This document shows positions 84-15,579 of a stretch of DNA of 15,579 bases, one piece after another. Under the pieces are notes generated by a model, which searched no databases, was not told the DNA's origin, and saw nothing but the letters and a program-made list of their open reading frames with translations. How positions within the stretch are numbered: position 1 is the stretch's first letter; the number at the start of each line of letters is the position of its first letter. Where the stretch lies: NCBI RefSeq assembly GCF_004138495.1, contig NZ_ML142873.1, positions 57,080 through 72,658 of the forward strand, in the 5' to 3' direction. Made by a program: the position numbers and the translations under genes. The stretch is from Phytoactinopolyspora endophytica. GTDB lineage: Bacteria; Actinomycetota; Actinomycetes; Jiangellales; Jiangellaceae.

Positions 84-1328
84 ATGGTGCCAGCACACGA
101 CAACGACAACAGAGTCAGCGACAACACGATCAACCGGCGAACCGTGCTGAAGTCGGCCATGGCGGCCGGTGTAGGAGTGGCCGGAGCCAGCGTAGGGCTG
201 CTAGGCGTGGCCACACCCGCGTCGGCGGCGCTCAGCCATCCCGGCTTGCTGCACACCCAGGCCGACTTCGACCGGATGAGGTCCCGGGTGATGGCGGGAG
301 ACCAGCCGTGGCAGGCGGGCTGGGAGCGGCTGACCGCCAACCCGCATTCGCATCCGGGCTGGACGCCGAATCCACAGGAGACCATCAGGCGGGGAGGTGG
401 CTCCGGCGAGAACTACCCGATCCTGTACAACGACATCCATGCTGCTTATCAGAATGCGCTGCGGTGGAAGATCCAGGGCCTGACTTCTCACGGTGACACC
501 GCGCGGGACATCTGCAATGCGTGGTCGGCGACGTTGCAGGAGATAACCGGAGACACCAACGCGTCCCTGGCGCTGGGGATCTACGGGTACCAGTTCGCGA
601 ATGTCGGCGAGATCATGCGCGGTTATCCGGGTTTCGACTTCGGTCGGTTCCAGACGATGATGAACGACATCTTCTACCCGGGAAATCTTGACTTTCTGGT
701 CCGGCGGCACGACACGTGTCCGTCGCATTATTGGGCGAACTGGGTCTTGTGCAATATGAACTCGATCCTGGCGATCGGGGTGTTGGCCGATGACCAGTCC
801 AAGATCGATTGGGCGGTCGACTACTTCTTCAACGGTGTGGGACAAGGGTCGATCTTGAACGCGATCCCGCACCTGCATGAGAACGACACACTGGGGCAGT
901 GGCAGGAAAGCGGCCGCGACCAGGGTCATACCTTGATGGGTGTGGGCCAGATGGGCGCCTTCTGTGAGATGGCCTGGAACCAGGGCTATGACCTGTACGG
1001 CGCCCACGACAGCAGGTTCATGAAAGCCTGCGAGTACATCGCCAGATACAACCTCGGGAACTCGGTGCCGTTCACCGACTACTACTGGGAATCGGGCCAC
1101 AACTGTGACCCGAACTGGCATACCCAGATCTCCGACCACAGCCGTGGGCAGATCCGTCCCGTGTGGGAGCGGGTCTACAACCATTACGGGGTTCGCCGCG
1201 GCTTGAGCGTGCCGTACACCGCGCAGTTCGCCTCCGAGGTTCGGGCCGAGGGCGGAGGCGGCGACTACGGCAGCACCAGCGGCGGCTACGACCAGCTCGG
1301 CTTCGGCACCCTCACGTGTACGCGTTGA
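84..1328 (+). CDS. Tat-exported alginate-lyase-family polysaccharide lyase, single domain
   Basis: This is a probable secreted polysaccharide lyase of 414 residues that would cleave an acidic polysaccharide by beta-elimination outside the cell. ATG 84 is chosen because AGGAGG lies just upstream and the product then opens with a compact Tat signal: N-R-R-T-V-L-K around residues 17-23, a hydrophobic stretch, and a P-A-S-A cleavage site near residue 48. GTG 87 is equally possible; GTG 15 would add 23 residues of unlikely sequence. The mature protein begins with HPGLLHTQADFDRM and carries family hallmarks: S-H-Y-W-A-N-W (His215, Asn219, Trp220), Q-E-S-G-R-D-Q-G-H (Glu275 to His282), then A-W-N-Q-G and L-Y-G. 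The fold expected for the family is an alpha/alpha toroid. It is a paralogue of the catalytic part of the gene at 1581. The substrate is unknown; alginate is the family name, not a finding. Confidence 0.85.
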   Translation: MVPAHDNDNRVSDNTINRRTVLKSAMAAGVGVAGASVGLLGVATPASAALSHPGLLHTQADFDRMRSRVMAGDQPWQAGWERLTANPHSHPGWTPNPQETIRRGGGSGENYPILYNDIHAAYQNALRWKIQGLTSHGDTARDICNAWSATLQEITGDTNASLALGIYGYQFANVGEIMRGYPGFDFGRFQTMMNDIFYPGNLDFLVRRHDTCPSHYWANWVLCNMNSILAIGVLADDQSKIDWAVDYFFNGVGQGSILNAIPHLHENDTLGQWQESGRDQGHTLMGVGQMGAFCEMAWNQGYDLYGAHDSRFMKACEYIARYNLGNSVPFTDYYWESGHNCDPNWHTQISDHSRGQIRPVWERVYNHYGVRRGLSVPYTAQFASEVRAEGGGGDYGSTSGGYDQLGFGTLTCTR

Positions 1329-1467: not shown

Positions 1468-1584
1468 ATGGATCCGTTCCACCGCAACGTTTCCCAGAAC
1501 GACAGGCACGCACAACCTCGCTGTGAGCTCTACCAACGACGCCGGAACGATGACGCAGGGCGTCACCCCGCGGTGATGGCATGA
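1468..1584 (+). CDS. Short 38-codon ORF, translationally coupled to the second lyase
   Basis: ATG 1468 follows a good Shine-Dalgarno box and opens a 38-residue frame ending in TGA at 1582-1584. That stop overlaps the ATG of the large lyase as ATGA, the classic arrangement for translational coupling. The product, MDPFHRNVSQNDRHAQPR and onward, is rich in Arg, His, Asp and Asn, has no signal or membrane segment, and matches nothing I recognise. It may act only as a leader whose translation feeds the downstream start. The competing view is that this stretch is debris of an Ig-like domain read in another frame (1502-1576), and that the ATGA overlap is fortuitous. Confidence 0.4.
   Translation: MDPFHRNVSQNDRHAQPRCELYQRRRNDDAGRHPAVMA
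1502..1576 (+). pseudogene. Possible remnant of a putative Ig (He_PIG-like) domain
   Basis: In the frame starting at 1502 the translation reads TGTHNLAVSSTNDAGT and then MTQGVTPR before a TGA at 1574. This closely follows the last two strands of He_PIG-type Ig domains, in which G-x-Y/F-x-x-x-V-x-x-T-N-x-A-G is typical. The large lyase has the same pattern twice, as GAFEVTVTATNAAG and a more diverged copy. Upstream codons in this frame do not continue the domain, so at most a 25-codon fragment survives. A simple reading is that a modular lyase once extended here and was cut down by deletion. Confidence 0.35.
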
Positions 1585-4500
1585 CCGAGGGCACAGCAAG
1601 TCGCCGTACTTTCCTCAGAGGAGCGGGCGGAACGCTGATCGTGGCGACCGGTGTGGGTTCCTTCCTCGCCGGCCGCGGTGACGTGGCATCCGCCAACCCA
1701 ACCGCGCAAGCGGCACTGGCCGCTGCGGCCACACAGTACGCGGGCCCGGGGGCGGGGTTCATCCATCCCGGCCTGCTGCACAGCCAGCAGGACCTGGAGC
1801 GCATGCGGACCGCTGTGGCGGCCCAAGAGGAGCCGATCTACCAGGGGTTTCAGGCCATGGCGGCGCACCATAGGTCGTCGCTCGACTACACGATCCGCAA
1901 CACCGGCCAGATCACGTCGTGGGGCCGTGGACCGACCGACTTCACGAACGAGGCGGCCGACGACGCTGCGGCCGCCTACCAGCAGGCCCTGATGTGGTCG
2001 ATCACCGGCGACGTGCGGCACGCGGACAAGGCGCGAGACATTCTCAACGTATGGTCGTCGAGCCTGAGGTCGATCACCGGCGCCGACGGGCAGCTGGGCA
2101 CCGGCCTGCAAGGGTTCAAGCTGGTGAACGCCGCCGAGATCCTGCGGCACAGCGACTACGACGGTTGGGCTGCGGACGACATCGCCCGCTGCGAGGACTC
2201 GTTCACAACCGTCTGGTACCGGTCGGTCTCCGGCTACGCGCTGTTCGCGAACGGTAACTGGGACACCGCCGCGTTGCAGACCATCATCGCGATCGGTGTG
2301 TTCTGCGATGACCGTGTCATGTTCGAGGACGCTGTGCGCTACGCGGTCGACGGCCCTGGGAACGGCACCATCACCAACATCGTCGTCGAGGAGACCGGGC
2401 AGGGGCAGGAGAGCGGGCGCAGCCAGGCGTATGCCCAGCTGGCGATCGGCTTGCTGACCGATGCCGCAGAGATCGCCTGGAACCAGGGGGTGAACCTCTA
2501 TGGTTACGCCGACAACCGCATCCTCGCCGGATTCGAGTACAACTCGCGTTACAACCTCGGCGACGACGCGATGCCGTTCGTGCCCGACCTCGACCGGACC
2601 GGCAAGTACATCAAGACGGCCATCTCCTCGAACAACCGAGGCCAGTACCGCCCCATCCACGAGCAGGCCTACGGCCATTACGTGAGCCGGATGGGGTTGT
2701 CCGCTCCGTTCACCGAGCAGGTGGTCTTCCGTGGCAGCGGCGGCAGCCGGCACGTCGAAGGCACCGACGACGACCACCCGTCGTGGGGCACGCTCACCCA
2801 CGCCCGTCCGCCTGCCGAGGAGTCGGAACCGCAGGCAGCACCGGCCGCGCCGGCCGGTCTGGTGGCCGACGGCTCGTCGTCGGGAATCACGGTGAGCTGG
2901 GTGGAGTCGGTGGAGCCCGTGAGCACGGCGCCGGCCGACAGCTACACGGTGAGACGCGCGACCACCGGCGATGGCCAGTACGAGACGATCGCCACCGACG
3001 TGACGTCCACCTCGTACACCGATGAGGACGTCACCGCCGGGCAGACGTACGTCTATGTCCTCTCCGCGTCGAACGAGGTGGGCGAGAGCCCGGTCTCGCT
3101 GGGCATCGCGGTCAGCGCCGGGCTGCCGTCACCGTGGGAGACCGGGGACGTGGGCGACGTCGAGACGCCGGGAGCGACGAACTTCGACGGGCAGGCGTTC
3201 GTGCTCGAGGATGGCGGCCGGGACATCGCTGGTCCGAGTGATGCGTTCCGGTTCACGTATGTGCCGATGACCGGGGACGGCACCCTCACCGCTCGGGTGG
3301 TCTATCCGGTGAGCTCGCAGTACGCGAAGGTCGGCCTGATGATGCGGGAGTCCCTGGACGCGGACTCCGCACACGCCTCGATGCTCATTCAGGGCCTCGC
3401 GTTGCATGCGTGGAGCGGCGTCTGGACCACGCGTCCGTCGGCCGGCGCGGAGACCACCGGCACCGGCAGCACGCTTGTTCCTCCCACCCAGCAGGAGGCG
3501 ATCACGGTCGACGCGGGCTTCGCGATCGCCAACCACGGTTCACTTCCGGAGTCGGCAACCCCGCTTCCCGCGCCCTACGTTGAGGGCGCAAGCGACGGCT
3601 ACCGGATGCGCAGGCCGTACTGGGTGCGCCTGGAACGCTCGGGAACGACGTTCACCGGATGGATCTCTCCCGACGGCGAGCAGTGGACCGAGGTGGGCTC
3701 CTCAGAGCTCGACCTCGGCGGCGAGCTGTATGTCGGCTTGGCCGCCTGCTCGGTTCTGGGCGTGCAGGAGGACTATGCCGAGACGACGACGGCGGCCTTC
3801 GACAACGTGAGCGTGCCGGGCTGGTCCGTGGACGTCCCGGCGAACCCGGTCGGCGAGGTGCAGGCATGGACGGGTGACAGCGCCGTCGAACTCGCCTGGA
3901 GCGGTGTGGACATGTCCGGGCGGTACACCGTCAAACGCGCCACGACGAGCGGCGGCCCGTACACCGCCGTCGCGACCGGCGTCGGCCCGGTCGGCTTCGG
4001 TGTCCAGGTACGGTACGCCGACGCTACCGGTACACCTGGCACGGAGTACTACTACGTGGTCAGCGCCGTCAACGTCGCCGGCGAGGGTCCGTCGTCGGCG
4101 GAGGTCAGCGCTACGATGCCGACTCCGCAGGCACCGGTGGTCGAGAGCACGACCATGGCGTATGCGAATGCAGGCGTGCCGTTCGAGTACCTGATCCGGG
4201 CCACCAACAGTCCGACCGGCTTCTCCGCGAGTGGGCTGCCCGACGGGCTGAGCGTGGACTCGGAGACCGGGATCATTTCCGGGGTCCCGGACGCCGGGGG
4301 CGAGTTCATTGTCGAGGTCGGCGCGGTCAACGCGACCGGCACCGGCACCGAGACCGTCACGCTCGCCGTCGGGACCCCACCGCCGGCGCCGTGGGACTAC
4401 CGCGACATCGGTGACTACGTGCTCGACGAGCGAATGCTCGGTACGTACAGCGTCGTCACCATCCGCACGCCCGGCATCACCGGCTACGACGACGAGACCG

Positions 4501-5495
4501 GAGCCTTCACGGTCCGGGGTGCCGGTTCGGATCTCAACGTCATCAACCAGGGCATGACCGTGCAGTACGCGTACGTGCCCTTGCGTGGCGACAGCGCGAT
4601 CATCGCCCGGGTGGCGGACCGGGAGAACGCCGGCGCAGCCGACCGGGTGGGTCTGATCATGAGCAAGTCCCTCTCGCCGTTCGATCAGATGGCAGGGGCG
4701 ATCCTGACCAGCACCGGGAGCGGCGACGCCGGGGTCAAGCAGTTCTTCCGGCGTCCGCGGGTGGCGTTCCGCCCCACGGTTACGGACGGTGAGGCGGGCG
4801 TCGGCGTGCCGGTCTGGCTGCGGCTACAACGCGAAGGCGACACGTTCAGCGCCGCGACCTCTGCGGACGGCGAGACCTGGACTGAGATCGGTGATCCGGA
4901 CACGATCCCCACGTTCGGCGATGCCCCGTTCTACGTGGGCATGGCCGTCGTCTCTGGTGACCCGATGGTGCTGAACACCACCGTCTTCGACCAGGTGTCG
5001 GTGACGCCGTGGTTCGCCGACGAGACCGTGAACGCGGTGGTGCACGAGCCGTTCGACCACCGGGTCACGACGGCGACGGGGGCGACGTTTGAGGCTGAGG
5101 GTCTGCCGCCAGGGTTGAGCATCGATGCCGAGAACGGGCAGATCAGCGGGAAGCCGGCGGCGCTGGGTGCATTCGAGGTGACGGTCACCGCGACGAATGC
5201 GGCGGGCAGCTTCACCGGTACGGTCACCGTGCAGGTCGGCCTTCAGACGCCGTTGTCATACGACACGGTCGCCGGCTACGTCGCCCAATACCACGAGGAC
5301 GGCGTGCTGGACCGGACGCAGGAACGGCGGCTGACGACGCACCTGTCGGTGGCGGAGCGTTTCGCCGACCGTGGGCAGGCCGCTCAGGCCGCCGAGGCCT
5401 TGGACCGGTTCGCTGAGGTAGCTGCCGGTGTCGCCGACGAGAACGCCCGGGAGGTGCTCCTCGCCGCCGTCGAGGCCCTGCGCCAGCAGCTGTAA
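1581..5495 (+). CDS. Modular Tat-exported alginate-lyase-family protein with FN3, laminin-G-like, Ig and FIMAH domains
   Basis: This 1304-residue secreted protein probably binds and cleaves an acidic polysaccharide. The Tat signal is S-R-R-T-F-L-R at residues 7-13, with likely cleavage near residue 38 (V-A-S-A). The lyase domain spans about 60-410 and has N-G-N-W (224-227), Q-E-S-G-R (276-280), A-W-N-Q-G and L-Y-G. Then follow FN3 (about 422-512), a DUF1349/laminin-G-like domain (518-747, with YVPMTGDGTLTARV), FN3 (757-845), putative Ig (855-930, GLPDGLSVD), a second DUF1349-like domain (937-1143), putative Ig (1147-1220, GLPPGLSID) and a helical FIMAH domain (about 1224-1304) containing FADRGQAAQAAEALDRF. 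No sortase motif or C-terminal membrane segment is present, so attachment would rely on binding domains. Compared with the first lyase, the D-Q-G-H at the end of the active-site motif reads S-Q-A-Y (281-284), so activity may differ. ATG 1581 overlaps the stop of the short ORF. Confidence 0.9.
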   Translation: MTEGTASRRTFLRGAGGTLIVATGVGSFLAGRGDVASANPTAQAALAAAATQYAGPGAGFIHPGLLHSQQDLERMRTAVAAQEEPIYQGFQAMAAHHRSSLDYTIRNTGQITSWGRGPTDFTNEAADDAAAAYQQALMWSITGDVRHADKARDILNVWSSSLRSITGADGQLGTGLQGFKLVNAAEILRHSDYDGWAADDIARCEDSFTTVWYRSVSGYALFANGNWDTAALQTIIAIGVFCDDRVMFEDAVRYAVDGPGNGTITNIVVEETGQGQESGRSQAYAQLAIGLLTDAAEIAWNQGVNLYGYADNRILAGFEYNSRYNLGDDAMPFVPDLDRTGKYIKTAISSNNRGQYRPIHEQAYGHYVSRMGLSAPFTEQVVFRGSGGSRHVEGTDDDHPSWGTLTHARPPAEESEPQAAPAAPAGLVADGSSSGITVSWVESVEPVSTAPADSYTVRRATTGDGQYETIATDVTSTSYTDEDVTAGQTYVYVLSASNEVGESPVSLGIAVSAGLPSPWETGDVGDVETPGATNFDGQAFVLEDGGRDIAGPSDAFRFTYVPMTGDGTLTARVVYPVSSQYAKVGLMMRESLDADSAHASMLIQGLALHAWSGVWTTRPSAGAETTGTGSTLVPPTQQEAITVDAGFAIANHGSLPESATPLPAPYVEGASDGYRMRRPYWVRLERSGTTFTGWISPDGEQWTEVGSSELDLGGELYVGLAACSVLGVQEDYAETTTAAFDNVSVPGWSVDVPANPVGEVQAWTGDSAVELAWSGVDMSGRYTVKRATTSGGPYTAVATGVGPVGFGVQVRYADATGTPGTEYYYVVSAVNVAGEGPSSAEVSATMPTPQAPVVESTTMAYANAGVPFEYLIRATNSPTGFSASGLPDGLSVDSETGIISGVPDAGGEFIVEVGAVNATGTGTETVTLAVGTPPPAPWDYRDIGDYVLDERMLGTYSVVTIRTPGITGYDDETGAFTVRGAGSDLNVINQGMTVQYAYVPLRGDSAIIARVADRENAGAADRVGLIMSKSLSPFDQMAGAILTSTGSGDAGVKQFFRRPRVAFRPTVTDGEAGVGVPVWLRLQREGDTFSAATSADGETWTEIGDPDTIPTFGDAPFYVGMAVVSGDPMVLNTTVFDQVSVTPWFADETVNAVVHEPFDHRVTTATGATFEAEGLPPGLSIDAENGQISGKPAALGAFEVTVTATNAAGSFTGTVTVQVGLQTPLSYDTVAGYVAQYHEDGVLDRTQERRLTTHLSVAERFADRGQAAQAAEALDRFAEVAAGVADENAREVLLAAVEALRQQL

Positions 5496-5540
5496 ACCGG
5501 TACGGACGCAACAGGAAGCCGGGATGCCTGTGGCGACCGG

Positions 5541-5710: not shown

Positions 5711-7732
5711 TCAGAGGAAGAGTCTCGGGAGATAGGCGGGCGGCTGGTCGTAGGGCGGCACCTCGCCCAGCGCCACCTGGTAGAGGCGGGCATGGCTGGC
5801 TCGGGCGGCGTCGACGAGCGGCTGGTACGGCTGGTGACAGACGTCGACGAAACCGATGTTGTAGTTCTCGCCGTCGAAGCGGCCGAGTGCGGACTGGTCG
5901 TAGAGGGTGAAGTAGTGCACGCCGACGCACCACGGCTGGGCGGCCGCGTCCTCGGTGTAGACCCGGAACGCCTGACCTCGCGCCTCCTGGTCGGCGACCC
6001 GGCCGATCCCGCTGGCGGGGAGCCCGACGTCGAGGGCCCCGAAATGCCACTCACCGATCAAGACCGGGCAGTTCAGCCGTTCGCTTACCGCGGCGAACTC
6101 GGGGGCGGTGACCCTCTCCTGGTAGCAGTTGACGCTGAACACGTCGAAACTGGTCATGCCTTCCAGCGCCCAGTCCGGCGGCACGGTGTAGTAGCGGGCG
6201 CCGAGGTTGAGATGGTTGGGGTCGACCTGGCTGCTGGCGGCGCTCAGCGTGTCGAACAGCCGACGGACCATGACGGTGCTGAAGTCCTCGAGGTCGCGGC
6301 GTGCGGTGTCGGTCAGCGCACTGGTCCACTGGCCGTCGGCCACCCGTCCCAGGGACGCATCCGGACCCCATGCGACGCGCAGACCCGCGTCGTCGCCGTA
6401 CCGCTCGGCCAGGAAATCCCGCAACGCGCGCCGGGTGGCACAGGTGCTCGTCGTGTACAGCATCCCGGCGGCCGGTGACTCCTCGGCGAACCCCCAGGTG
6501 GGCTCGTTCATCAGGAAGTAGCCGACGAGCGCCGGGTCGTCCCGGGTGGAGAGCAGGGCCTGCGCGTACTCCTCGGCGTCGTCGGCGAACTCGGGCGCGA
6601 AGACGTCGGGGAAGTCGCGGTAGACCATTGGGGTGCGGCGACAGGTCAGGTGCAGCGGGCGGACGTACGGGAAGCCTGCGGCGCTCGCCGCCTCGATGTT
6701 GGACCAGTTGCCGATGGTGGTGAACCCGCACTGCTTGAGGAACCCGACGGCGACGGTCGCCCACGACTCGCGCCAGCTGTCCGGACCGAACGCATGGATC
6801 AGGTTCGCGCCGAGATAGTTCATCATCCGTCGTCCGGTGTCGTGGACGTCGCCGTACGGCCCGGCGGCGTCGGGCAGCCAGGTCAGGGCGGACTCCAGAC
6901 CGTCGTACGCGGTCTGGACGGAGCTCCCCACGCAGTCGATGCCGGCAGACCAGTAGCGGAAGCCCGCCGGGTCGACGAGCCACCATCGGCTGCCGTCGTG
7001 GTGGGTCCGGAAATACCCGGTCGCCGGCAGCTCGCCGGCCGGCGTCCAACCGCCCCAGCGGCTGAAGCCGTCCGGCCACTCCTGCGCGGGCGCGGCGTCC
7101 AGTTGAGTGCGCAGCCGGGAGACGACGTCATCCACGTGTTCGCTACGTCCGGGCCAGTCGCGCAGCCGGTTCTGGCCGAGCTCGTCGAGCAGTGGACCGT
7201 GCGGCAGCAACGGCTCGGTCAGCCGCGGCGGCTCGGCAACGGTGGCAATGAACGGGGTCATGCACCACCGCACCGGCCCGGTTCCGTTGCGGATGAGACT
7301 GAGCGTCATCTGGTCGACTCGTGCGAGATCGACCCGCTCACCCCAGCAGATCGGCTTGAGCCAGGCGCCCTCTCGGGAGAGAAGCCAGGTGTCGAGGTCC
7401 GTGACCTCCAGCGGGACTCTGATCCGGGCCGCACACTGGGCGAGCGCACCGAAACTGAGCCGGAACTCCGGGCCGTCGGCGCCCTCGCGCAACGCCAGCT
7501 GGAACACGGCGAGCTCGTCGCCGTCGAGCAGCAGGTCGCTCGCCAGGTAGCGAACATTCTGCAGTGCTCCGGCCGGAAAGGCGTACGTGACGGTGGCATC
7601 GACGTCGTCGGCCGTGTACCAGGTGGCGCCGGGGAACATGGGCGCCGCGGAGCGGTCGATGACGGTGCCGTCGCCGATGTGCCGCGGTGACAGCTCGACG
7701 GGCAGCGAGCCGGAGAGATCGGAGGTGTTCAC
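5711..7732 (-). CDS. Agarase-like (GH50-type) clan GH-A glycoside hydrolase, cytoplasmic
   Basis: This is a 673-residue glycosidase that probably trims imported oligosaccharides. The start is GTG at 7732, overlapping the upstream stop as GTGA; the open frame continues upstream to 8299 but that part is a shadow of the membrane-protein gene. Residues about 20-170 look like the beta-sandwich carbohydrate-binding domain that precedes agarase catalytic domains. The TIM barrel begins near 235 with ATGYFRTHHDGSRWWLVDPAG. The clan GH-A acid/base is Glu410 in F-L-M-N-E-P-T-W and the nucleophile Glu561 in V-L-I-G-E-W-H-F-G. The C-terminal G-E-N-Y-N-I-G-F-V-D-V (about 621-631) is typical of agarase-like enzymes. 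There is no signal peptide, consistent with action after import. It is the last gene of the operon. GH50 is my best family guess; an adjacent GH-A family is possible, and agarose need not be the substrate. Confidence 0.8.
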   Translation of the reverse strand: MNTSDLSGSLPVELSPRHIGDGTVIDRSAAPMFPGATWYTADDVDATVTYAFPAGALQNVRYLASDLLLDGDELAVFQLALREGADGPEFRLSFGALAQCAARIRVPLEVTDLDTWLLSREGAWLKPICWGERVDLARVDQMTLSLIRNGTGPVRWCMTPFIATVAEPPRLTEPLLPHGPLLDELGQNRLRDWPGRSEHVDDVVSRLRTQLDAAPAQEWPDGFSRWGGWTPAGELPATGYFRTHHDGSRWWLVDPAGFRYWSAGIDCVGSSVQTAYDGLESALTWLPDAAGPYGDVHDTGRRMMNYLGANLIHAFGPDSWRESWATVAVGFLKQCGFTTIGNWSNIEAASAAGFPYVRPLHLTCRRTPMVYRDFPDVFAPEFADDAEEYAQALLSTRDDPALVGYFLMNEPTWGFAEESPAAGMLYTTSTCATRRALRDFLAERYGDDAGLRVAWGPDASLGRVADGQWTSALTDTARRDLEDFSTVMVRRLFDTLSAASSQVDPNHLNLGARYYTVPPDWALEGMTSFDVFSVNCYQERVTAPEFAAVSERLNCPVLIGEWHFGALDVGLPASGIGRVADQEARGQAFRVYTEDAAAQPWCVGVHYFTLYDQSALGRFDGENYNIGFVDVCHQPYQPLVDAARASHARLYQVALGEVPPYDQPPAYLPRLFL

Positions 7733-8409
7733 GACGGCATCAGCCTTTCCAAGCGGTGCGCGTGCAGGACGGCGACCAGTACCGGCACGATCAGCACCAG
7801 GCCGGCGATCGACACCGCACCGACGACGAGGACGGCCGCGGTCATCACCCATGTCCACAGCGACTGCTCCGGGTGACGCGTCACCAGGCGCACCGATGTG
7901 CGGGCGATGTGCCGGGCGCTCCGGTGCGGTTGGGCGACGAAGAGCGGGCCCCAGTAGATCGCGCAGACCGACCACAGCAGCGCCACCAGGGTGACGACGG
8001 TGGTGAGGGCGGAGAACCCAGCCATTCCGGCCATGATCCCGGCCCAGACCAGGACGCCGAACGTCCCATACAACGGAGCGAGCACCCGTACACTGCGACC
8101 GGCCAGCTCGCGCGTCAGCTCCTTGGCCAGGGCGAGGTCGACGTGCTGCTCGCGGCAGGCGACGCCAGCCAGAGCGAAGAGGGCGGCGGTGGCGAGCGGC
8201 AGCGCACTCGCACTCGCTAGCCCGAGCATGATCCGCAGCCAGCCGGGCAGCTCCGCGAAAGCCAACGCCACGACGCCGGGAGCGGCCACAAGGGACCACC
8301 CGACGTTCACCGCGACCAGGCGCTCTACCTGCCCGCCGATCGTCGCGAAAGCCGCCCAGGTCGGTCCGCGACGCTCGTCGCGGGGACCGATGTCATCGAG
8401 AAACGGCAT
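7729..8409 (-). CDS. YesL/DUF624-like membrane protein
   Basis: This 226-residue integral membrane protein resembles the YesL (DUF624) family, whose genes usually sit beside oligosaccharide ABC transporters and polysaccharide-degrading enzymes; its biochemical role is not established. Hydrophobic segments are visible near residues 30-50, 55-80, 110-150 and 180-205, with a soluble stretch containing S-A-R-H-I-A-R-T-S-V-R between the later ones. The start ATG 8409 is preferred over the GTG at 8418 because AAAGG lies at normal distance upstream. It overlaps the ATPase gene before it by 17 bases and the hydrolase gene after it by 4, which makes co-translation likely. Family assignment rests on size, topology and context more than on motifs. 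Confidence 0.65.
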   Translation of the reverse strand: MPFLDDIGPRDERRGPTWAAFATIGGQVERLVAVNVGWSLVAAPGVVALAFAELPGWLRIMLGLASASALPLATAALFALAGVACREQHVDLALAKELTRELAGRSVRVLAPLYGTFGVLVWAGIMAGMAGFSALTTVVTLVALLWSVCAIYWGPLFVAQPHRSARHIARTSVRLVTRHPEQSLWTWVMTAAVLVVGAVSIAGLVLIVPVLVAVLHAHRLERLMPS

Positions 8410-9568
8410 CGATATCACCTTTGAGTAGAGAGGCGCCGGTGTCGGCGTCGAACAGGTGCACCTTGGACAGGTCGATGCCGAGCGGGATCTCCTGGTCGAG
8501 GTAGCTGTTCGGCAGCCGGACGGTGAAGGTGGCGACGAAGTCCTGCCCCTCGGCGGTGCTCAGATAGACCGTGCATCCGCTGGCGGTCGGCTCGATCAGG
8601 GTGACGATGCCGTGCAGGGTGTTCTCCTCGGTCACCTCGAACGGTGCCATCCTTGGGACGTGCAGGTCCTCGGGGCGGACCCCCATCCGGACCCGCTGCC
8701 CGACGTGTGCTCGCGCGGCCGCGGTCATGCTCGGGTGCACGCGCAACCGCAGACCGGAGCCGACCATGACAGCACCGTCTCCGTCGGCCTGGATCTCCAT
8801 GTCGAACAGGTTGATGCTCGGAGTGCCGATGAAGAACGCCACGAACTCGCTCACCGGACGCTCGTACAGATCGCTGCCGGTGCCGATCTGCTGGATCCGC
8901 CCATCGGCCATCACCGCGATCCGGTCGCCGAGCGCCATCGCCTCGGACTGGTCGTGCGTGACATAGACGGTGGGACGGTGCTTGTTCTTGTGCAGTGTCA
9001 GGATGTCCTCGCGTGCCTGGTGGCGCAGCTGAGCGTCCAGGTTGGACAGCGGCTCGTCGTACAGATAGAGCGCCGCGTCGCGGACCATCGCCCTGGACAA
9101 CGCGACGCGCTGCCGCTCGCCTCCGGACAGCTGGCGCGGCTTGCGGGTCAGCAGGTGGTCGATCCGGAAGGTCTGTGCGGCCTCGGTGACCTTGTCTTTG
9201 ACGACCTTGCGTGCCTCTCGGCGAGAACGGAGGCCGTAGGCGATGTTCTCGAAGACGGTCAGGTGGGGAAAGATCGCGTAGTCCTGGAAGACCATGGCGA
9301 TGCGGCGATCACGCGGGCGGATCTCGTTGACCACCCGGTCGCCGAACTGGATCTGGCCGTCGCTGACCGGCTCCAGCCCGGCCAGCATCCGCAGCGTGGT
9401 CGTCTTGCCGCATCCCGACGGCCCGACCAGGACGAGCAGCTCCCCATCGGCGATGTCGAAGCTCACGTCCTCAACGGCGTGCTTGTCTCCGAAGCGCTTC
9501 TGGACTCCCCGGACCTTGATCGCGGTCTCACTGCTGTATCGCGGCTCTGCGATTGCTTCTGTGGTCAT
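8393..9568 (-). CDS. Carbohydrate ABC transporter ATP-binding protein, first of two types (MsmK/UgpC-like)
   Basis: This 391-residue cytoplasmic ATPase would power oligosaccharide import with the permeases encoded upstream. All nucleotide-binding motifs are intact: Walker A GPSGCGKTT (residues 49-57), Q-loop V-F-Q-D-Y-A, signature L-S-G-G-E-R-Q-R-V, Walker B A-L-Y-L-Y-D-E-P, D-loop S-N-L-D, and switch His in Y-V-T-H-D-Q. The C-terminal third has the R-M-G-V-R-P-E-D and E-P-T-A-S-G motifs of MalK-type regulatory (TOBE/OB) domains. ATG 9568 is used; a GTG at 9571 directly before it is equally plausible. The gene follows the other ATPase gene after a gap of about 35 bases. Walker B has Tyr where most MalK-type proteins have Leu or Met, a mild change. 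Two distinct ATPase genes in one operon suggest a heterodimer. Confidence 0.9.
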   Translation of the reverse strand: MTTEAIAEPRYSSETAIKVRGVQKRFGDKHAVEDVSFDIADGELLVLVGPSGCGKTTTLRMLAGLEPVSDGQIQFGDRVVNEIRPRDRRIAMVFQDYAIFPHLTVFENIAYGLRSRREARKVVKDKVTEAAQTFRIDHLLTRKPRQLSGGERQRVALSRAMVRDAALYLYDEPLSNLDAQLRHQAREDILTLHKNKHRPTVYVTHDQSEAMALGDRIAVMADGRIQQIGTGSDLYERPVSEFVAFFIGTPSINLFDMEIQADGDGAVMVGSGLRLRVHPSMTAAARAHVGQRVRMGVRPEDLHVPRMAPFEVTEENTLHGIVTLIEPTASGCTVYLSTAEGQDFVATFTVRLPNSYLDQEIPLGIDLSKVHLFDADTGASLLKGDIDAVSR

Positions 9569-9603
9569 CACGTCCGTCCCTGTTCCTCGTCGACTGGCAC
9601 ACG

Positions 9604-10719
9604 TCAGAAGAGCTCAAGCACGCCGGGTGTATGCAGCGGGCGTTCGCCGTCGGGTTCGAAGAAGTACGCACGGTCGAGATCGGGCGTCGCTGTGAGCTGG
9701 TCTCGCTCCGGGTGGTCGACCGGCAGGATCACCGTGACGTTTCTGCCGGCGACGGTGCCGTATGCGAAGGCGGCCCGCTCGGTCGGCAGCCGTTCGATGT
9801 GACGCACGGACACCGCCAGCCCGTCGGCCTCGTCCAGCCGCCAGCCCTCTGGGCGGATTGCCAGATCGACCGGGCCGTCCGGCACGGCGGCACGCACCGG
9901 GGATGGGAGATCCCAGCTGGCACCCGCGAGCTGCAGCCGGCCATCGGTGACCGCGGCCGGCAGGACACTGATCGGCGGCGACCCGATGAACGTCGCGACG
10001 AACCGGGAGGCCGGGGTGTAGTAGAGATCGTCGAACGTGCCGACCTGCTCGATCCGGCCGTCGCGCATCACCACGATCCGGTCGCCCATGAAGATCGCTT
10101 CCTGCTGGTCGTGTGTGACGTACAGGGTGGTGATCTTGAACTTGCGCAGCAGCTTGCGGATCTCGACCCGGGTCTGCTCGCGCAGCTTGGCGTCGAGGTT
10201 GCAGATCGGCTCGTCCATCAGGAACAGCGGTGGGTCCCGGACGATGCAGCGGGCGATGGCGACGCGTTGCTGCTCGCCGCCCGAGAGCGTCGTCGGCACT
10301 TGGCCCAGCAAGAGGTCGAAGCCGACCCCCATCCGTTCGGCGGTCTCGCGGACCCGTTGCTCGGCCTCCTCCTTGCTGCTGTCGTGGACGTCGAAGTAGT
10401 ACGCCAGGTTGCCCTTGCCCTTCATCGACGGGTACAGAGCGTAGTCCTGGAAGACCATGCCCACCCCGCGCTCCTGTGGGCGCACCCCGGTGACGTCGAC
10501 GCCGTCGTAGCGCACCCGGCCCTGGTCCGGGTCCTCGATGCCGGCGACCACCTTGAGCAGGGTGGACTTGCCGCAGCCCGACGAGCCGACGATACTGATC
10601 GTCTCGCCGTCGGCCACCTGCAATGACACGTCGTCCAAGGCGGGCCGGCCTGTGTTGGTCTGGACGATCCGGTCATCCACGTAGTGCTTGACGACGTGGT
10701 CGATGTCGATGCGAGCCAT
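9604..10719 (-). CDS. Carbohydrate ABC transporter ATP-binding protein, second type (MalK/UgpC-like)
   Basis: This 371-residue ATPase is diverged from its neighbour but also carries a complete motif set: Walker A GSSGCGKST (45-53), V-F-Q-D-Y-A, L-S-G-G-E-Q-Q-R-V, Walker B L-F-L-M-D-E-P, and Y-V-T-H-D-Q. The segment after Walker B reads I-C-N-L-D rather than the usual L-S-N-L-D. An insertion with Y-Y-F-D-V-H-D follows the Q-loop region, and the C-terminal regulatory domain has L-A-I-R-P-E-G. It starts 9 bases after the permease stop, with a GAGGAG box overlapping that stop. Sugar importers of the CUT1 class mostly use one ATPase as a homodimer; paired ATPases are known, for example in the rhizobial glycerol transporter GlpS/GlpT. 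Which permease each ATPase contacts cannot be told. Confidence 0.9.
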   Translation of the reverse strand: MARIDIDHVVKHYVDDRIVQTNTGRPALDDVSLQVADGETISIVGSSGCGKSTLLKVVAGIEDPDQGRVRYDGVDVTGVRPQERGVGMVFQDYALYPSMKGKGNLAYYFDVHDSSKEEAEQRVRETAERMGVGFDLLLGQVPTTLSGGEQQRVAIARCIVRDPPLFLMDEPICNLDAKLREQTRVEIRKLLRKFKITTLYVTHDQQEAIFMGDRIVVMRDGRIEQVGTFDDLYYTPASRFVATFIGSPPISVLPAAVTDGRLQLAGASWDLPSPVRAAVPDGPVDLAIRPEGWRLDEADGLAVSVRHIERLPTERAAFAYGTVAGRNVTVILPVDHPERDQLTATPDLDRAYFFEPDGERPLHTPGVLELF

Positions 10720-10728: not shown

Positions 10729-11742
10729 TCACTTCAGTCCACGCAGGCGGATGCCGCGCAGTAGATACTCTCGGCAGACGATGAACGCGATGAACACCGG
10801 CAGCGACTGCAGGATCGCCAGCACCATGAGGCCGTTCCAGGACAGACCGCCGCCGAGCATGTCCTGCATCACCTCCGCCTCCGCGGCCGCCGCCTCGGCG
10901 CTGGTGCCGCCGGACTGGACAATCCGTTCCATCAGCAGGTAGAGCTCGACCGACATCGGCATCCGCTCTGGCGTCTGCAGGACCACCAGCGGCCAGAGGA
11001 ACTGGTCCCACGCCAAGCTGAACGCCGTCCAGATCGTGACCGCATAGACCGGGACGCTCATCGGCAGCACGATGCGGCGGAAGATGTTGAACTCCGACCC
11101 GCCATCGACCCGGGCCGCCTGGATGACGGAGTCGGGAATGGTGTCGAAGAACCCCTTGAACAGCAGGAAGTTGAACGCTTGAAAACAGATCGGGAAGATC
11201 ACCGCCCAGTGGGTGTCCCAGATCGGGAACGTGGGGAAGGCCGTATCCGTCCCGGGTATGTTTGGTGCGTTCGGGAGCGCGAACGGGAAGTTCCTGGTCA
11301 ACAGGAAATTCGGGATCAGGGTCAGGGCTGCCGGCATCATCAGCGTGCCGATGAAGAACAGGAATGACCACCGGGCCATCGGCCCGCGCTGCAGCTTGCT
11401 GTTCGCGTACGCCGCCATTGACGTGATCGGAATGCCGATGACGAGTACCCAGAAGGTGATCTGCACCGAGTTCCAGAAGAACAGCCAGAGTGGTGCGTCC
11501 AGCAGCTGGCCGGCACTGCCCTGGACGATCTGGAAGACCAGCTTCCAGCCGGCGAAACTCGGGTCCTGCGGCCAGAACGTCGGCGGGAATGCGAGCACCT
11601 CCTCGCCGGACTTGAACGAGCTGACCAGCATGAAATAGAAGGGAAAGAGGTGCAGAGCGATACCCAGGCACAGGAACGCCACCACAGCCCACCAGGCGAT
11701 CCGGAGCATGGGCTGTTTCCGCCCGACACGTGGGAAAAGCAT
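10729..11742 (-). CDS. Carbohydrate ABC transporter permease, MalG/UgpE type
   Basis: This 337-residue inner-membrane permease forms half of the translocation pore. It has about six membrane segments, starting near residue 14 (RIAWWAVVAFLCLG), and an EAA-type loop, I-Q-A-A-R-V-D-G-G-S-E-F, followed by R-R-I-V-L-P, which docks on the ATPase. It is longer than the usual 270-300 residues owing to two extra-loop insertions: one with F-A-L-P-N-A-P-N-I-P-G-T and one Ala/Glu-rich stretch, SAEAAAAEAEVMQDM, in the last outer loop. The start ATG 11742 has AGGAGG 6 bases upstream. It lies 26 bases after its partner permease gene and 9 before the ATPase gene. Confidence 0.9.
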   Translation of the reverse strand: MLFPRVGRKQPMLRIAWWAVVAFLCLGIALHLFPFYFMLVSSFKSGEEVLAFPPTFWPQDPSFAGWKLVFQIVQGSAGQLLDAPLWLFFWNSVQITFWVLVIGIPITSMAAYANSKLQRGPMARWSFLFFIGTLMMPAALTLIPNFLLTRNFPFALPNAPNIPGTDTAFPTFPIWDTHWAVIFPICFQAFNFLLFKGFFDTIPDSVIQAARVDGGSEFNIFRRIVLPMSVPVYAVTIWTAFSLAWDQFLWPLVVLQTPERMPMSVELYLLMERIVQSGGTSAEAAAAEAEVMQDMLGGGLSWNGLMVLAILQSLPVFIAFIVCREYLLRGIRLRGLK

Positions 11743-11768: not shown

Positions 11769-12710
11769 CTAGGCGTCCGGGTCTTCACGGAAGAACCGCC
11801 GCTGGATGATCACCAGCAGCATGGTTCCGATGAACAGGAAGACGCCGAGCGCCGTCGCGTCCGCATAGCGCAGGTTCTGCAGCAGCTCGTACAGGTACAT
11901 GACGACGGTGCGGCTGGCGCCGCCCGGGCCTCCTCCGGTCATGATCATCGGGTACTCGAACACCTGGGTGGACCCGATGACGGCGAAGATCAGCAGCATC
12001 GAGATCACCGGACGCAGCCGGGGCAGCGAGATGGTCCACATCTTCCGCCAGAACCCGGCGCCCTCGATCTCGGCGGCCTCGTAGTACGACGCCGGGATGC
12101 CCTGCAGCGTCGCCATGTAGATCAGGCCGGGGCCGAAGAACAGGATGCCGGGGAACACCAGCCAGAACAGCACCTGGTCGCTGGAGTTCAGGAACGGCTG
12201 CGGTTCGAGCCCGAGAACCTCGGTGGCGATCCATTGGAACAGCCCGTACTGGGCGTTGAACATGTACCGGAACAGCAGCGTGGACGCAATCCCGGACAGC
12301 GGGATGAACCAGAGCAGCATCATCCAGCGGATGTGCCGCTTCGGCATCTCCATCAGCAGGATCGCGACGAAGATCGGGATGAAGAACGTCAACCCGATGC
12401 TCAGCACCGCGTAGATGGCCGTGACGCGGAACGCCTCGGCCACCAGCGGGTCGCTCCACATCCGTTCGTAGCTCTCCAGCCCGGTGAACTCGATCGGTCC
12501 ACGGACGCGGGCGTTGGTGAAGCTGATGACGAATGCCATCAGCAGCGGATACCAGCCCCACGTGAGCTGGAAGGAGAACGCCGGCAGCACGAACAGGGCG
12601 CGCTCGAGCCGGCGCCGGCGGCTCGGTGCCGGCTCGCGCACCTGGCTTTCGGTACCGGCGGGCGGTTCCGCTCCGCCCGCGGTTTCGGTCGCTTCTTGCT
12701 GCAGTGTCAT
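11769..12710 (-). CDS. Carbohydrate ABC transporter permease, MalF/UgpA type
   Basis: This 313-residue permease is the likely partner of the MalG-type protein. ATG 12710 (MTLQQEATETAGG) is chosen because it starts 16 bases after the binding-protein stop and gives a normal length; the frame stays open to 12836 but that part overlaps the upstream gene. The N-terminus is a soluble Glu/Pro-rich tail with a basic patch, P-S-R-R-R-R-L-E-R-A, before the first membrane helix (LFVLPAFSFQLTWGWYPLL). Five further helices follow. The EAA loop is Y-Y-E-A-A-E-I-E-G-A-G-F-W-R-K-M-W, then I-S-L-P-R-L-R-P. A glycine-rich M-T-G-G-G-P-G-G loop near the C-terminus is typical of the family. Confidence 0.9.
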   Translation of the reverse strand: MTLQQEATETAGGAEPPAGTESQVREPAPSRRRRLERALFVLPAFSFQLTWGWYPLLMAFVISFTNARVRGPIEFTGLESYERMWSDPLVAEAFRVTAIYAVLSIGLTFFIPIFVAILLMEMPKRHIRWMMLLWFIPLSGIASTLLFRYMFNAQYGLFQWIATEVLGLEPQPFLNSSDQVLFWLVFPGILFFGPGLIYMATLQGIPASYYEAAEIEGAGFWRKMWTISLPRLRPVISMLLIFAVIGSTQVFEYPMIMTGGGPGGASRTVVMYLYELLQNLRYADATALGVFLFIGTMLLVIIQRRFFREDPDA

Positions 12711-12726
12711 ATCGCGTCCACAGCTC

Positions 12727-14379
12727 TCAGCCGAGCGCCGGCCGGACGTGGTCTTCGTACCAGGGGTCGAAGACGTCAGCCGCATAGTCCGGCGCGTGCT
12801 CCTGCCAGAACTGCTGGAGCGCCTCGTAGTAGGCACGGGCGCCCTCGGCGAACTCGTCGTCGTCGACGCTCGAAGTGAAGTCGGCCGCCTGCGTGTTGCG
12901 GGTCTGCTCCAGGTTCGCCAGGTCCGCCGCGATGTCGACGTTGCCGCGCTCGAACGACCACCGGGACTCCATGTCTTCCTCGGCCGTGAGCGCCGGGCCG
13001 GCGGTCTCCTCGACCGGGAGGTAATTGCCCTCGTTCGGCGGCAACGGCAGCGCGGAGGCGTCCTCGACCGCCTGCATGTACTGCTCGCCCCACGCCTCCA
13101 CCAGATCGCCGGGGACCCCCTCGACCTCGGTCCGGCCGTGGACCGGAGCCGGGTCGTTGAAGACGCTTTGCAGACTCTGCGTCTCCTCCCACAGGACCTC
13201 GCGCTCGATTTCCCAGCCCTGACCGAAGATCATCCAGTCATGGAGACTGACCGCCTTGTCCAAGGCCTCCTCGGACAGATCGGGAGAGAAGGACATCACC
13301 GTCATGAACGCCTGGGTGTCGCCGAACCGGCCGTGCTCGCCGCGTGGGTGCTGGATCCAGCCGACGACCTCCTCCAGCGGCATGCCGAGACTCTCCGCGA
13401 GGTTGCTCGGGCCCGGGTTCGACGTGTCGTTCGGGTCCGCGGTGAAGAAGCCCGAGTTGGAGATGATCATCGCGGCCCGCCCCTGGGCGAACGCGTTCCT
13501 GGTGTCCCCGTCTTCGAAGGCGACGTCGGAGAGGATGCTCTCGTCCTCGAACACCATGGCGCGGAAGTCTTCGATGGCCCTCGTCCACGTATCAGCGTGG
13601 GTCGTCGTATAGTCCCAGCGCCAGTTCCACGCCGACTCTGGATCGGGAAGCTTGGACAGCTCCAGCCAACCGTCTGCGATGAGCCTCACGTGGAGCGCGG
13701 TGGATTGGAACGCCGCCCCCTTGCGGTCCCCATCGGTCAGCGCGCGCGCCAGTTCGCGGAACTCCGACCATGTCCAGCCCGGCTGCGGCTCCTGCAGCCC
13801 GAGCTCGGCGATGAGGTCGCGGCGGAAGTAGATGCCGTTCCCGGCGCCGAAGTAGTTGGGAACGCCGTAGTACGCGCCGTTGACCTGCCAGGTGGACCAG
13901 ATGGGCTTGGCATAGTCCGCCAGCTTGCTGTCCATGTCGTAGCTCTCGAGCAGCTCCGTCGTGTCGGCAGCGAGCCCCTGGGCGAACGCGGACTTGGTGG
14001 CCGCGACGTTCCAGCCGCCGAGCACGTTTCCGGGGAACATCGCTGGCGCGGTGCCACCGCTCAGGGCGGTCGTGAGCGCCTGCTGGTCCCAGATGTCGGT
14101 GGCGACCTGCTCGACTGTGACGCCGGGGTTGTCGTCCAGCCATGTCTGCAGTGCCTCGGCGTAGGCCTTCTTGACCGGGTTCTCCTCCTGGACCTCAGCC
14201 GAGGGCATGACGTCGAACGGCCACGTCGGATCGCCGCCGAACCGCAGCACGACGTCCGCGCCGTCGTCGCTCCCTCCACCACCGGGCGTTCCGCCGGTAC
14301 AGGACGTGATGACGGCGCCGGAAGCTGCTGCTGCGCCGCCGGCGGCGAGCAGCCGTAACATCTCTCGTCGATTGAGCAT
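12727..14379 (-). CDS. Tat-type lipoprotein solute-binding protein of the sugar ABC transporter
   Basis: This 550-residue extracytoplasmic binding protein would capture oligosaccharides and pass them to the permeases. ATG 14379 is set by AAGGAGGT just upstream; a start at 14412 would add 11 residues. The N-terminus combines a twin-arginine motif, N-R-R-E-M-L-R (3-9), with a lipobox, I-T-S-C, placing the lipidated cysteine at residue 27, followed by a Gly-rich linker. Family 1 binding-protein features include Y-Y-G-V-P-N-Y-F, I-Y-F-R-R-D-L-I-A-E-L-G-L and W-T-W-S-E-F. It is longer than the common 400-450 residues, as in binding proteins for larger oligosaccharides such as LipO/YtcQ-type. It is 33 bases downstream of the beta-propeller gene and so probably belongs to the same transcript. 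Ligand unknown. Confidence 0.9.
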   Translation of the reverse strand: MLNRREMLRLLAAGGAAAASGAVITSCTGGTPGGGGSDDGADVVLRFGGDPTWPFDVMPSAEVQEENPVKKAYAEALQTWLDDNPGVTVEQVATDIWDQQALTTALSGGTAPAMFPGNVLGGWNVAATKSAFAQGLAADTTELLESYDMDSKLADYAKPIWSTWQVNGAYYGVPNYFGAGNGIYFRRDLIAELGLQEPQPGWTWSEFRELARALTDGDRKGAAFQSTALHVRLIADGWLELSKLPDPESAWNWRWDYTTTHADTWTRAIEDFRAMVFEDESILSDVAFEDGDTRNAFAQGRAAMIISNSGFFTADPNDTSNPGPSNLAESLGMPLEEVVGWIQHPRGEHGRFGDTQAFMTVMSFSPDLSEEALDKAVSLHDWMIFGQGWEIEREVLWEETQSLQSVFNDPAPVHGRTEVEGVPGDLVEAWGEQYMQAVEDASALPLPPNEGNYLPVEETAGPALTAEEDMESRWSFERGNVDIAADLANLEQTRNTQAADFTSSVDDDEFAEGARAYYEALQQFWQEHAPDYAADVFDPWYEDHVRPALG

Positions 14380-14412: not shown

Positions 14413-15339
14413 CTAGTGAGCGCGTGCGTGGTCTGCGGAGCTCCAGTGCATTGCGTCGTCGCTGGTCATCGGGCCAGCGTCGGTACCTGCGTAGATCCGG
14501 GCCGGGCCGGCCGCGAGGCAATGAACGACGGGTGGCGCATCCACCGCCCGCTGCCAGGTGGCGCCGTCGTCGTAGGAAAGCCACAGCCCGTCGCCTGCCG
14601 TTCCGGCGACGAGTGTGCCGCCTGCGCCGACGGCGAGATCGGTGACACCTGCCGTGACCTCGCCCACCGCCGCCCACGTACCGCCGTCGTCGTCGGACCG
14701 CAGCACCTCCCCCTGCTCGAGAACGGCGATGGCGGTCCGGTCGGACGTGTACGCGACGGCGGCGACCGGTGCCGTCAGCTGTGTGCAGCGCCGCCAGACG
14801 CGGCCGGCCTTGTGCGAGCGGAACAGCCCGTCAGCGGTTCCGGCAATGACGGTGCCGGTGTGCGGGCCGACCGACAGCGTGGTGGCTTCGCGGTCCTGAA
14901 GCCCGAAGCTCGAGCCGACGAAGTGCCGGCCGCCGTCCTCGCTGCGCAGGACTCCGTCGCCGATGGTGGCGGCGAGTAGCACCGTCTCGTGCTCGACCGG
15001 AACGGACACCAGGTCGGCGACCGGTGAATGGCCGCCGCGAACCTGCGCCGGCCACCAGCGGCCACCGGCTCGCAGCGCCATGCCGCCGGCACCGCCGACG
15101 ACGAGGCCGTCGGCGACAGGCAGGAGTGAGGTGACCGGGCCGTCGAACGGGGGGCGTTCGACGGCACCGGACGATGTGTGCGCGACGCCGCTGAACCCAC
15201 CAAGCCACGCGTCGTCGCCGGCAGCCGCGACGGCGAGAACGGCGGACCCAGCTGCGAGCACAGCAGATTCGGCTGCGGGAATCGCGGAGCCGGGGGTGAG
15301 CTCCGGCTGCTCGTCGAGCGTTCGCGCGTGCTCAGGCAT
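14413..15339 (-). CDS. Leaderless Asp-box (BNR/sialidase-like) beta-propeller protein
   Basis: This 308-residue protein is predicted to fold as a beta-propeller. Asp-box motifs (S-x-D-x-G-x-x-W) recur as S-E-D-G-G-R-H-F, S-D-D-D-G-G-T-W and S-Y-D-D-G-A-T-W, with a worn copy S-H-K-A-G-R-V-W, spaced about 40 residues apart. Between them are repeated G-T-A-D-G-L and G-T-A-G-D-G-L turns. No signal peptide, membrane segment or sialidase F-R-I-P or catalytic motif is visible, so it is probably cytoplasmic and not a sialidase. Its ATG overlaps the stop of the GroEL-like gene by 8 bases, implying coupled translation, and the binding-protein gene follows 33 bases later. Function is not known; a scaffold or client linked to the chaperonin is one guess. 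Photosystem assembly factor Ycf48-like and VPS10-like repeats look similar at this level. Confidence 0.75.
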   Translation of the reverse strand: MPEHARTLDEQPELTPGSAIPAAESAVLAAGSAVLAVAAAGDDAWLGGFSGVAHTSSGAVERPPFDGPVTSLLPVADGLVVGGAGGMALRAGGRWWPAQVRGGHSPVADLVSVPVEHETVLLAATIGDGVLRSEDGGRHFVGSSFGLQDREATTLSVGPHTGTVIAGTADGLFRSHKAGRVWRRCTQLTAPVAAVAYTSDRTAIAVLEQGEVLRSDDDGGTWAAVGEVTAGVTDLAVGAGGTLVAGTAGDGLWLSYDDGATWQRAVDAPPVVHCLAAGPARIYAGTDAGPMTSDDAMHWSSADHARAH

Positions 15340-15579
15340 GGCCGGTCACCACCCGGGCCGAGATCAGGAGACCGGCGGTCTCGCCGGCCGCGTCGAGCGA
15401 ACCGGCGGCCACGGAGGCAACATCGATGACGCCGTGTTCGAGCATGTCCGCATACCCGCCGGTGACGACGTCGAAGCCGGTCCCGGCAGCATCGGTGCAC
15501 ACAGTGTCCAGCGCGACCCGGGGCTCCGGGTGCCCGGCGTTGCGGACGATCTGCAGGAAGGGCGCCTGTAACCCAGCAC
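15332..15579 (-). CDS. GroEL-like (Cpn60) chaperonin paralogue, C-terminal part
   Basis: The last 81 codons of a gene running off the right edge are read in the frame whose first complete codon begins at 15577. They match the equatorial C-terminus of group I chaperonins: L-Q-A-P-F-L-Q-I-V-R-N-A-G aligns with the GroEL A-P-L-x-Q-I-x-x-N-A/S-G segment, G-G-Y-A-D-M-L-E-H-G-V-I-D with E-Y-G-N-M-I-D-M-G-I-L-D, and A-G-L-L-I-S-A-R-V-V with the A-G-L-M-I-T-T-E segment. The Asp equivalent to E. coli Asp495, which contacts ATP, is kept. The residues aligned with Asn479 and Ala480, which line the adenine pocket, read Asp and Val. The protein stops soon after (V-T-G-H-A) and lacks the Gly-Met tail of housekeeping GroEL. 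It is therefore a diverged paralogue. The stop lies inside the start of the beta-propeller gene. The N-terminal part is outside the window. Confidence 0.85.
   Translation of the reverse strand, partial: AGLQAPFLQIVRNAGHPEPRVALDTVCTDAAGTGFDVVTGGYADMLEHGVIDVASVAAGSLDAAGETAGLLISARVVTGHA

Follow-up and report, generated by a model that had tools for sequence, protein, structure and literature searches.

Bacterial chaperonins are generally taken as folding machines, and claims of moonlighting functions mostly concern ordinary GroEL. Divergent chaperonin paralogues thought to stand outside the folding cycle are GroEL2 and GroEL3 of chlamydiae and human BBS6, BBS10 and BBS12, in which respect they may resemble the protein described here. 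None of them is known to be tied to a transporter operon. In this study we analyzed a stretch of 15,579 nucleotides from Phytoactinopolyspora endophytica (referred to as the window; bases 57080–72658 of contig 25, genome size 7.6 Mb), where a divergent GroEL relative (CPN) and an Asp-box β-propeller (PROP) are encoded next to an ATP-binding cassette (ABC) importer. The GroEL relative and the propeller accompany one type of sugar importer at every locus read, and our results suggest that an old folding machine has been turned into a transporter accessory.

The right edge of the window interrupts the minus-strand CPN gene and leaves the codons of 81 C-terminal residues inside (15577–15335). Their open frame (15577–15332) ends with a TGA at 15334–15332 and overlaps by 8 bases with the PROP gene, which starts with an ATG at 15339–15337 and closes with a TAG ending at 14413. 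The ATG of the solute-binding protein (SBP) lies 33 bases further, at 14379, behind an AAGGAGG motif; an alternative in-frame ATG is present at 14412. Two permeases (PermA, PermB), two ABC ATPases (ATP1, ATP2) and a small membrane protein follow. An earlier note, made from the window alone, had reported the chaperonin C-terminus with its stop inside the first propeller codons, and the binding protein with a full ABC importer behind it, and both descriptions hold. It had also placed the chaperonin at the head of the operon, which is not the case. The remaining part of CPN (436 readable residues) is found on the same contig in the stretch to the right of the window (L006, 3981 to 2674, minus strand), and its start codon (L006:3981) overlaps in an ATGA with the stop of a preceding gene for a MalK-type ABC ATPase (ATP0). 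ATP0 in turn is preceded by a gene for a LacI-type regulator. The operon thus has a total of three ABC ATPases (ATP0, ATP1 and ATP2), and the standard motifs are present in each. Exactly at the window border both CPN parts are separated by 14 N, so that the CPN copy of this genome is not readable end to end. Runs of 12 to 72 N break several genes of the genome (L006 2659–2672, which is the run in CPN, 4192–4263, 5474–5504 and 9651–9715; also in L007, L008 and L009), including ATP0 and the groES-linked groEL (L009 6604–6629).

The conservation of this arrangement was assessed in 12 loci, the window and all 11 others detected in the genome searches, of approximately 20 kb each (L010, L070–L076, L027, L028, L078). 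All nine genes (ATP0, CPN, PROP, SBP, PermA, PermB, ATP1, ATP2 and the membrane protein) were present in 12/12 loci. They follow each other in this order in nine loci; in the other three (L076, L027, L028) the six-gene importer block comes first and is followed by ATP0-CPN-PROP. In the chaperonin trees, the proteins of these three loci group together as a single clade. PROP directly adjoins CPN in every locus, with overlapping frames in the window and likewise in the 11 others, where gene starts were taken from the longest frames, some of them overlong (e.g. PROP of L070, L027 and L028). Among the database matches, five pairs of a chaperonin and a propeller have longest contigs of equal length (5663, 7834, 16800, 326420 and 432055 bases, the pair at 326420 being L071 once more), which hints at a common contig without proving it. 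The question raised in the earlier note, whether the GroEL-like gene remains linked to the propeller and ABC genes beyond this strain, can thus be answered positively for several genera. ATP0, CPN and PROP moreover behave as a block: their evolutionary distances covary after correction (r = 0.76 and 0.68 for 66 non-independent pairs from 12 sequences), with ATP1 also reaching 0.67. The CPN frame is open end to end in 11/11 complete loci. Its ratio of nonsynonymous to synonymous substitutions (dN/dS) of 0.16–0.30 in four close pairs is above that of most other genes compared and well below 1. Judged from these values, CPN is under purifying selection.

As a GroEL relative, CPN is well supported. 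Its 81-residue C-terminus matched positions 408–480 of the PF00118 profile with E = 2e-5 and 23.9 bits (for the C-terminus only; the whole-protein cut-off is 34.3) and a GroEL model with E = 6e-13. The 436-residue part scored 68.6 bits against PF00118, above the curated cut-off of 34.3, and 218 bits against the GroEL equivalog model, for which the cut-off is 582. All three domains (equatorial, intermediate and apical) occur in the GroEL arrangement, as in group I chaperonins, and several relatives carry the NCBI annotation "TCP-1/cpn60 chaperonin family protein". According to a model calculated for a relative, the GroEL fold is retained in CPN.

CPN is the third cpn60 of its genome. Of the other two, one is complete and lies on contig 16; the second, broken by N, adjoins groES on contig 17. 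CPN is approximately 30–34% identical to these housekeeping GroELs. The module, on contig 25, shares its contig with neither of the two GroES-like genes of the genome (contigs 17 and 11). In all five CPN-positive genomes examined the module contained no groES, and the GroES genes were either on a different contig or separated from it by 0.3 Mb or more. The alternative of an ordinary groEL next to groES, which the earlier note had named as a refutation, was rejected on these grounds and because CPN scores below the cut-off of the GroEL equivalog model. The second GroES-like gene (G000 C11:199838–200095, 67.5 bits) resides on a contig with no cpn60 match. A pair of one strong and one weak GroES was present in 8/8 actinobacterial genomes, five CPN-positive (weak member ~66–70 bits) and three CPN-negative (65–68 bits). 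Since the second gene occurs equally in all three CPN-negative genomes, it shows no linkage to the module, and we rejected the idea of a special GroES for CPN.

CPN has changed at functionally important positions, the active site included (numbering according to alignment with E. coli GroEL; the core set comprises the 12 module proteins). The catalytic Asp398 is replaced in 12/12 proteins (Arg in seven, Lys in four, Asn in one), and was kept in all 36 loci of ordinary actinobacterial GroELs used as controls. The phosphate loop GDGTTT is altered to GDG-x-AT: Thr90 is Ala throughout, and Thr89 is Gly, Ala or Ser and never Thr. The control frames were chosen for containing GDGTT, so that their counts at positions 89–91 carry no meaning; the Asp398 count is unaffected. 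Other parts of the nucleotide pocket are retained, namely Asp87, Gly414–Gly416 and Asp495 in 12/12 and Asp52 in 10/12 proteins. In the apical domain Tyr199 is replaced by Pro and Tyr203 by charged, polar residues or glycine in all 12 proteins, and Leu259 is kept in a single one. By its sequence, CPN is not an ordinary GroEL: Asp398, Thr90 and part of the apical groove for GroES and substrate have changed. This lends support to one suggestion of the earlier note, that of a chaperonin-derived protein with another role. In a wider set of 45 proteins (the 12 module proteins and 33 relatives) position 398 is Lys in 23, Arg in 18, Gln in three and Asn in one; Thr90 is Ala in 45/45 and Thr89 is never Thr. 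This set includes P0032, P0033 and P0036, which an earlier tree places with the Chloroflexota group described below.

The second partner, PROP, was modeled with a pLDDT of 89.3 as one propeller of seven sheets, and no signal peptide was seen in the window protein. The model, the repeats and the profile matches assign it to the Asp-box/BNR propeller superfamily, although the Pfam BNR score of 19.7 bits is under the cut-off of 27. Compared with solved structures, the PROP profile matched a glycoside hydrolase (GH) family 74 xyloglucanase (E = 3.6e-16) and Ycf48 (E = 4e-13); the F510_1955 glycosylhydrolase model gave 76.7 bits at a cut-off of 175. Most PROP relatives have sufficient length for two propellers in tandem. 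The length of the L078 protein would fit a single propeller, and the window protein, with its seven sheets, lacks the tandem of GH74.

A protein search with CPN yielded a distinct set of relatives (67 to 39% identity), set apart from ordinary GroELs, which follow at ~30% (among the 120 of 427 matches listed); named members among these matches belong to Actinopolymorpha, Streptomyces, Microlunatus and Jiangella. In whole-genome profile searches CPN was detected in at least 3/393 genomes of the class, which include the window's genome and all belong to its family, in at least 8/391 genomes of the order of A. pittospori and in at least 1/372 genomes of one large genus, probably Streptomyces. These are lower bounds, since only the best candidates per genome were scored with strict E-value limits. 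A reverse search with PermA found 3/197 genomes of the class at E = 1e-85 and 7/181 of the order at E = 1e-60, with no match between 1e-60 and 4e-129 in the latter; 10 out of 10 PermA-positive genomes were also chaperonin-positive. Profile A2 matched 26 of 396 genomes of the phylum (26 loci), and besides the window's own protein these were ordinary GroELs, all with Asp398. The short P0026 and P0030 had been excluded from profile A1. Relatives on plasmids (10 listed of 1305 and 10 of 1338) are 31–36% identical and annotated as GroEL or unannotated. Viral contigs of IMG/VR contain chaperonin relatives as well, in 3 and 33 loci (L059–L061, L091–L123) with 25–34% identity to the queries.

The loss of Asp398 extends beyond the importer-linked proteins. 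A second search retrieved a large group in which all named members among the 120 rows listed come from Chloroflexota (Anaerolineae, Anaerolineales and Caldilineae). In this group Asp398 is absent from 115/115 rows among P0121–P0235 (Lys 77, Gln 22, Glu 10, Arg 4, His 2), and the loop is mostly GDG-x-AT. These proteins are annotated as GroEL or as TCP-1/cpn60 family. Trees were calculated with the trait columns removed by a quick method, with branch support from the Shimodaira-Hasegawa-like approximate likelihood ratio test (SH-aLRT) and no bootstrap. One branch with an SH-aLRT of 100 separates 41 Asp398-less from 18 ordinary rows. In an enlarged tree, to which the Asp398-less rows P0050, P0055, P0067 and P0091 and corrected control frames were added, 45 Asp398-less rows are split from 22 others, again with a support of 100; there the earlier 41 rows without the four additions do not lie on one side of a branch (p-AU = 0.12 in the approximately unbiased test if held together). 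Within the tree of 41 versus 18 rows, the importer-linked chaperonins and a few metagenomic ones form a 20-row sub-clade with a support of 100. The topology, which is unrooted, would fit a single old loss of Asp398 with a later attachment to the importer.

The enzymes encoded around the module differ from locus to locus. Selected neighbors are PF05426 lyases, GH43 and a β-agarase-like protein in the window, PhyH in Actinopolymorpha, Gfo/Idh/MocA together with DUF6807 in one Jiangella, and peptidases in G840. Five window-side proteins (the two PF05426 lyases, the GH43 protein, a 1001-residue protein and the agarase-like protein) were searched for in the 11 other loci. A match was obtained for the agarase-like protein alone (59%), in one locus (L075), where it adjoins the module. 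This variation makes a function of CPN in the folding of large enzymes unlikely. We rejected CPN as a folder of large polysaccharide enzymes, because four of five neighbors have no homologue at the other 11 loci; of the clients considered in the earlier note for a dedicated chaperonin, the large enzymes are thus unsupported and the propeller is retained.

Since the importer is constant and the surrounding enzymes vary, CPN and PROP most likely serve the importer. We propose that CPN is a chaperonin-derived pseudo-ATPase which is part of the nine-gene import module rather than of the cell's folding machinery, and which, together with PROP, serves the importer as an assembly or regulatory accessory in the cytoplasm. 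On the sequence evidence, this reading is tentative, and we would give it a probability of about 0.48. Without its catalytic residue, CPN is more easily understood as a scaffold or switch than as a chaperonin whose folding cycle is driven by ATP. CPN would bind ATP and turn it over very slowly or not at all; held in such a state, it would act as a stable scaffold, not as a folding engine. CPN and PROP, probably with ATP0 as the third ATPase, would make up an accessory complex in the cytoplasm and dock onto the ATPase subunits of the importer. This complex could either assemble and hold the correct pair of ATPases on the permeases or work as an on/off switch of uptake that responds to ATP or to the imported sugar. 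A seven-fold CPN ring is assumed here by analogy to its kin. More specifically, the three ATPases beneath the permeases might be gathered or gated by a non-hydrolyzing, ATP-binding heptameric CPN ring on which the propeller, its seven blades fitting the sevenfold symmetry of the ring, sits as a cap instead of GroES; we consider this arrangement quite unlikely. If the ring were indeed an importer subunit, the Asp398-less clade including the Chloroflexota group could represent a widespread class of non-folding chaperonins.

Several observations weigh against an accessory function or favor its main rival, a dedicated folding chaperonin. In that case CPN would still encapsulate its client, PROP or an importer ATPase; turnover would be very slow, and the housekeeping GroES might assist. 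The adjacency of CPN and PROP in every locus with overlapping frames would be in line with a chaperonin and its client, and there is a precedent for a pair of chaperonin and propeller, since seven-bladed WD40 propellers are clients of the eukaryotic chaperonin CCT (PMC8544692). GroEL D398A has an ATPase rate of ~2% of the wild type, but its apical domains still move on ATP binding and substrate is still released, only slower (PMC3813556). The mutant thus remains responsive to ATP, and the loss of Asp398 alone need not stop a chaperone cycle. About half of the apical groove is still aliphatic: Leu237 is retained in 12/12 module proteins, Phe204 is Leu, Val or Trp in 11/12, Val263 is Leu in 7/12, Val264 is Leu or Val in 8/12, and Leu234 is Val, Ile or Leu in 7/12 (Arg in four, Thr in one). 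The Chloroflexota group even retains Tyr203 (100/115), Leu259 (110/115) and Val263 (98/115). The CPN model is also closer to the GroES-bound state (root-mean-square deviation 3.2–3.7 Å) than to apo GroEL (~11.7 Å), a comparison that has no control model of an ordinary GroEL. What speaks against dedicated folding is the loss of Asp398 in all module proteins and its presence in all controls, the replacement of Tyr199, Tyr203 and mostly Leu259, and the missing groES in the module. Moreover, no dedicated chaperonin is known to be required by related propellers such as Ycf48 and GH74. We consider this explanation unlikely on balance, but the strongest of the alternatives.

CPN might also join rings of the housekeeping GroEL and shift their choice of clients, or brake their cycle, when the import operon is switched on. 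The kinship to GroEL, the conserved residues of the equatorial pocket and the two ordinary GroEL genes in the genome are in line with such mixed rings. The low identity to these very GroELs and a Leu at the ring-interface position Arg452 in the window's CPN are not, and PROP as well as the third ATPase would be left unexplained; we regard mixed rings as improbable. Similarly doubtful is a reversal of roles, with PROP as a cytoplasmic protein akin to GH74 or F510_1955 that binds or cleaves imported oligosaccharides and CPN as its stabilizing base. It draws on the profile matches given above, but these stay under the curated cut-offs where such exist. GH74 enzymes act in a cleft between two propellers, whereas the window's PROP is a single propeller, as the short PROP of L078 may be too. 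A chance neighbor or a decaying groEL duplicate, finally, would account for the patchy distribution among genomes, but is contradicted by the synteny: complete modules in all loci and in two block orders, open frames and a dN/dS well below 1. No module was present at L008 (16 kb) and L009 (14 kb), where the housekeeping GroELs of this genome are encoded; L008 contained weak permease matches only (26 and 42%) and a LacI match (33%). We therefore rejected a chance neighborhood and hold decay to be very improbable.

Table 2 summarizes the features of the window. The binding protein, both permeases and the motif-intact ATPases constitute a carbohydrate ABC importer of the CUT1 type. SBP has the appearance of a lipoprotein or Tat substrate by eye, with a sub-cut-off match to Pfam TAT_signal (14.6 bits). 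A simple scan indicated five hydrophobic segments in the membrane protein, for which Pfam gave no family above cut-off. Pfam gave no match either for the agarase-like protein, a putative member of family GH50.

Table 2. Annotated features of the window and the evidence for their assignment.
Feature	Position	Strand	Evidence
CPN C-terminus, 81 codons and stop; Cpn60/GroEL-like putative pseudo-ATPase	15332–15579	-	PF00118 and GroEL models; genome position
PROP, predicted seven-bladed Asp-box β-propeller, 308 aa	14413–15339	-	sub-cut-off Ycf48/BNR and F510_1955 matches; structure model
SBP, sugar solute-binding protein, 550 aa	12727–14379	-	solved sugar-binding structures (best E 1.5e-6); synteny
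PermA, MalF/UgpA-type permease	11769–12836	-	family models; 65–87% identity in other loci
PermB, MalG/UgpE-type permease	10729–11742	-	PF00528, 37.7 bits
ATP1, MalK/UgpC-type ABC ATPase, motifs intact	9604–10719	-	family models; motif check
ATP2, MalK/UgpC-type ABC ATPase with OB/TOBE domain, motifs intact	8393–9571	-	family models; motif check
Conserved membrane protein, ~229 aa; ends the six-gene importer block	7729–8418	-	hydropathy; synteny
Agarase-like enzyme	5711–7699	-	β-agarases of solved structure, E 7e-59
Two PF05426 (alginate lyase family) proteins	1581–5492 and 15–1325	+	Pfam; one has 1304 residues with FN3, He_PIG and FIMAH

The genes of the module were already annotated; what appears to be new is an ABC importer with a putative accessory derived from a chaperonin. 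We found no account of such a link between chaperonin and importer in the open-access literature searched, which does not imply its absence elsewhere. Loss of the catalytic aspartate characterizes an entire clade, and one of its branches, in several genera, accompanies one type of importer at every locus read. This makes the module a well-defined, testable example of how a chaperonin scaffold may have been put to use outside folding. It also points to a possible new accessory of ABC importers and is a reason to revisit "GroEL" annotations within the Asp398-less clade.

In comparison with known systems, CPN differs from GroEL and other group I chaperonins (Cpn60, PF00118) in the missing Asp398, in GDG-x-AT replacing GDGTTT, in the partly altered apical contacts and in the lack of an adjoining groES. 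Its matches to the models of chlamydial GroEL2 and GroEL3 are weak (NF038369 and NF038370, 82.4 and 59.5 bits at cut-offs of 600). PROP shares the Asp-box propeller with Ycf48/HCF136, an assembly factor of a membrane complex, photosystem II (PMC10403576). Ycf48 is lipidated (PMC8038367) and, on that basis, exported, whereas PROP has no visible signal peptide and most of its relatives have the length of a propeller tandem. The importer itself corresponds to CUT1-type systems such as MalFGK2 and UgpABCE in its binding protein, its two permeases and its MalK-type ATPases, but unlike these it has three ATPases of its own, and a chaperonin relative as well as a propeller are encoded in the same operon.
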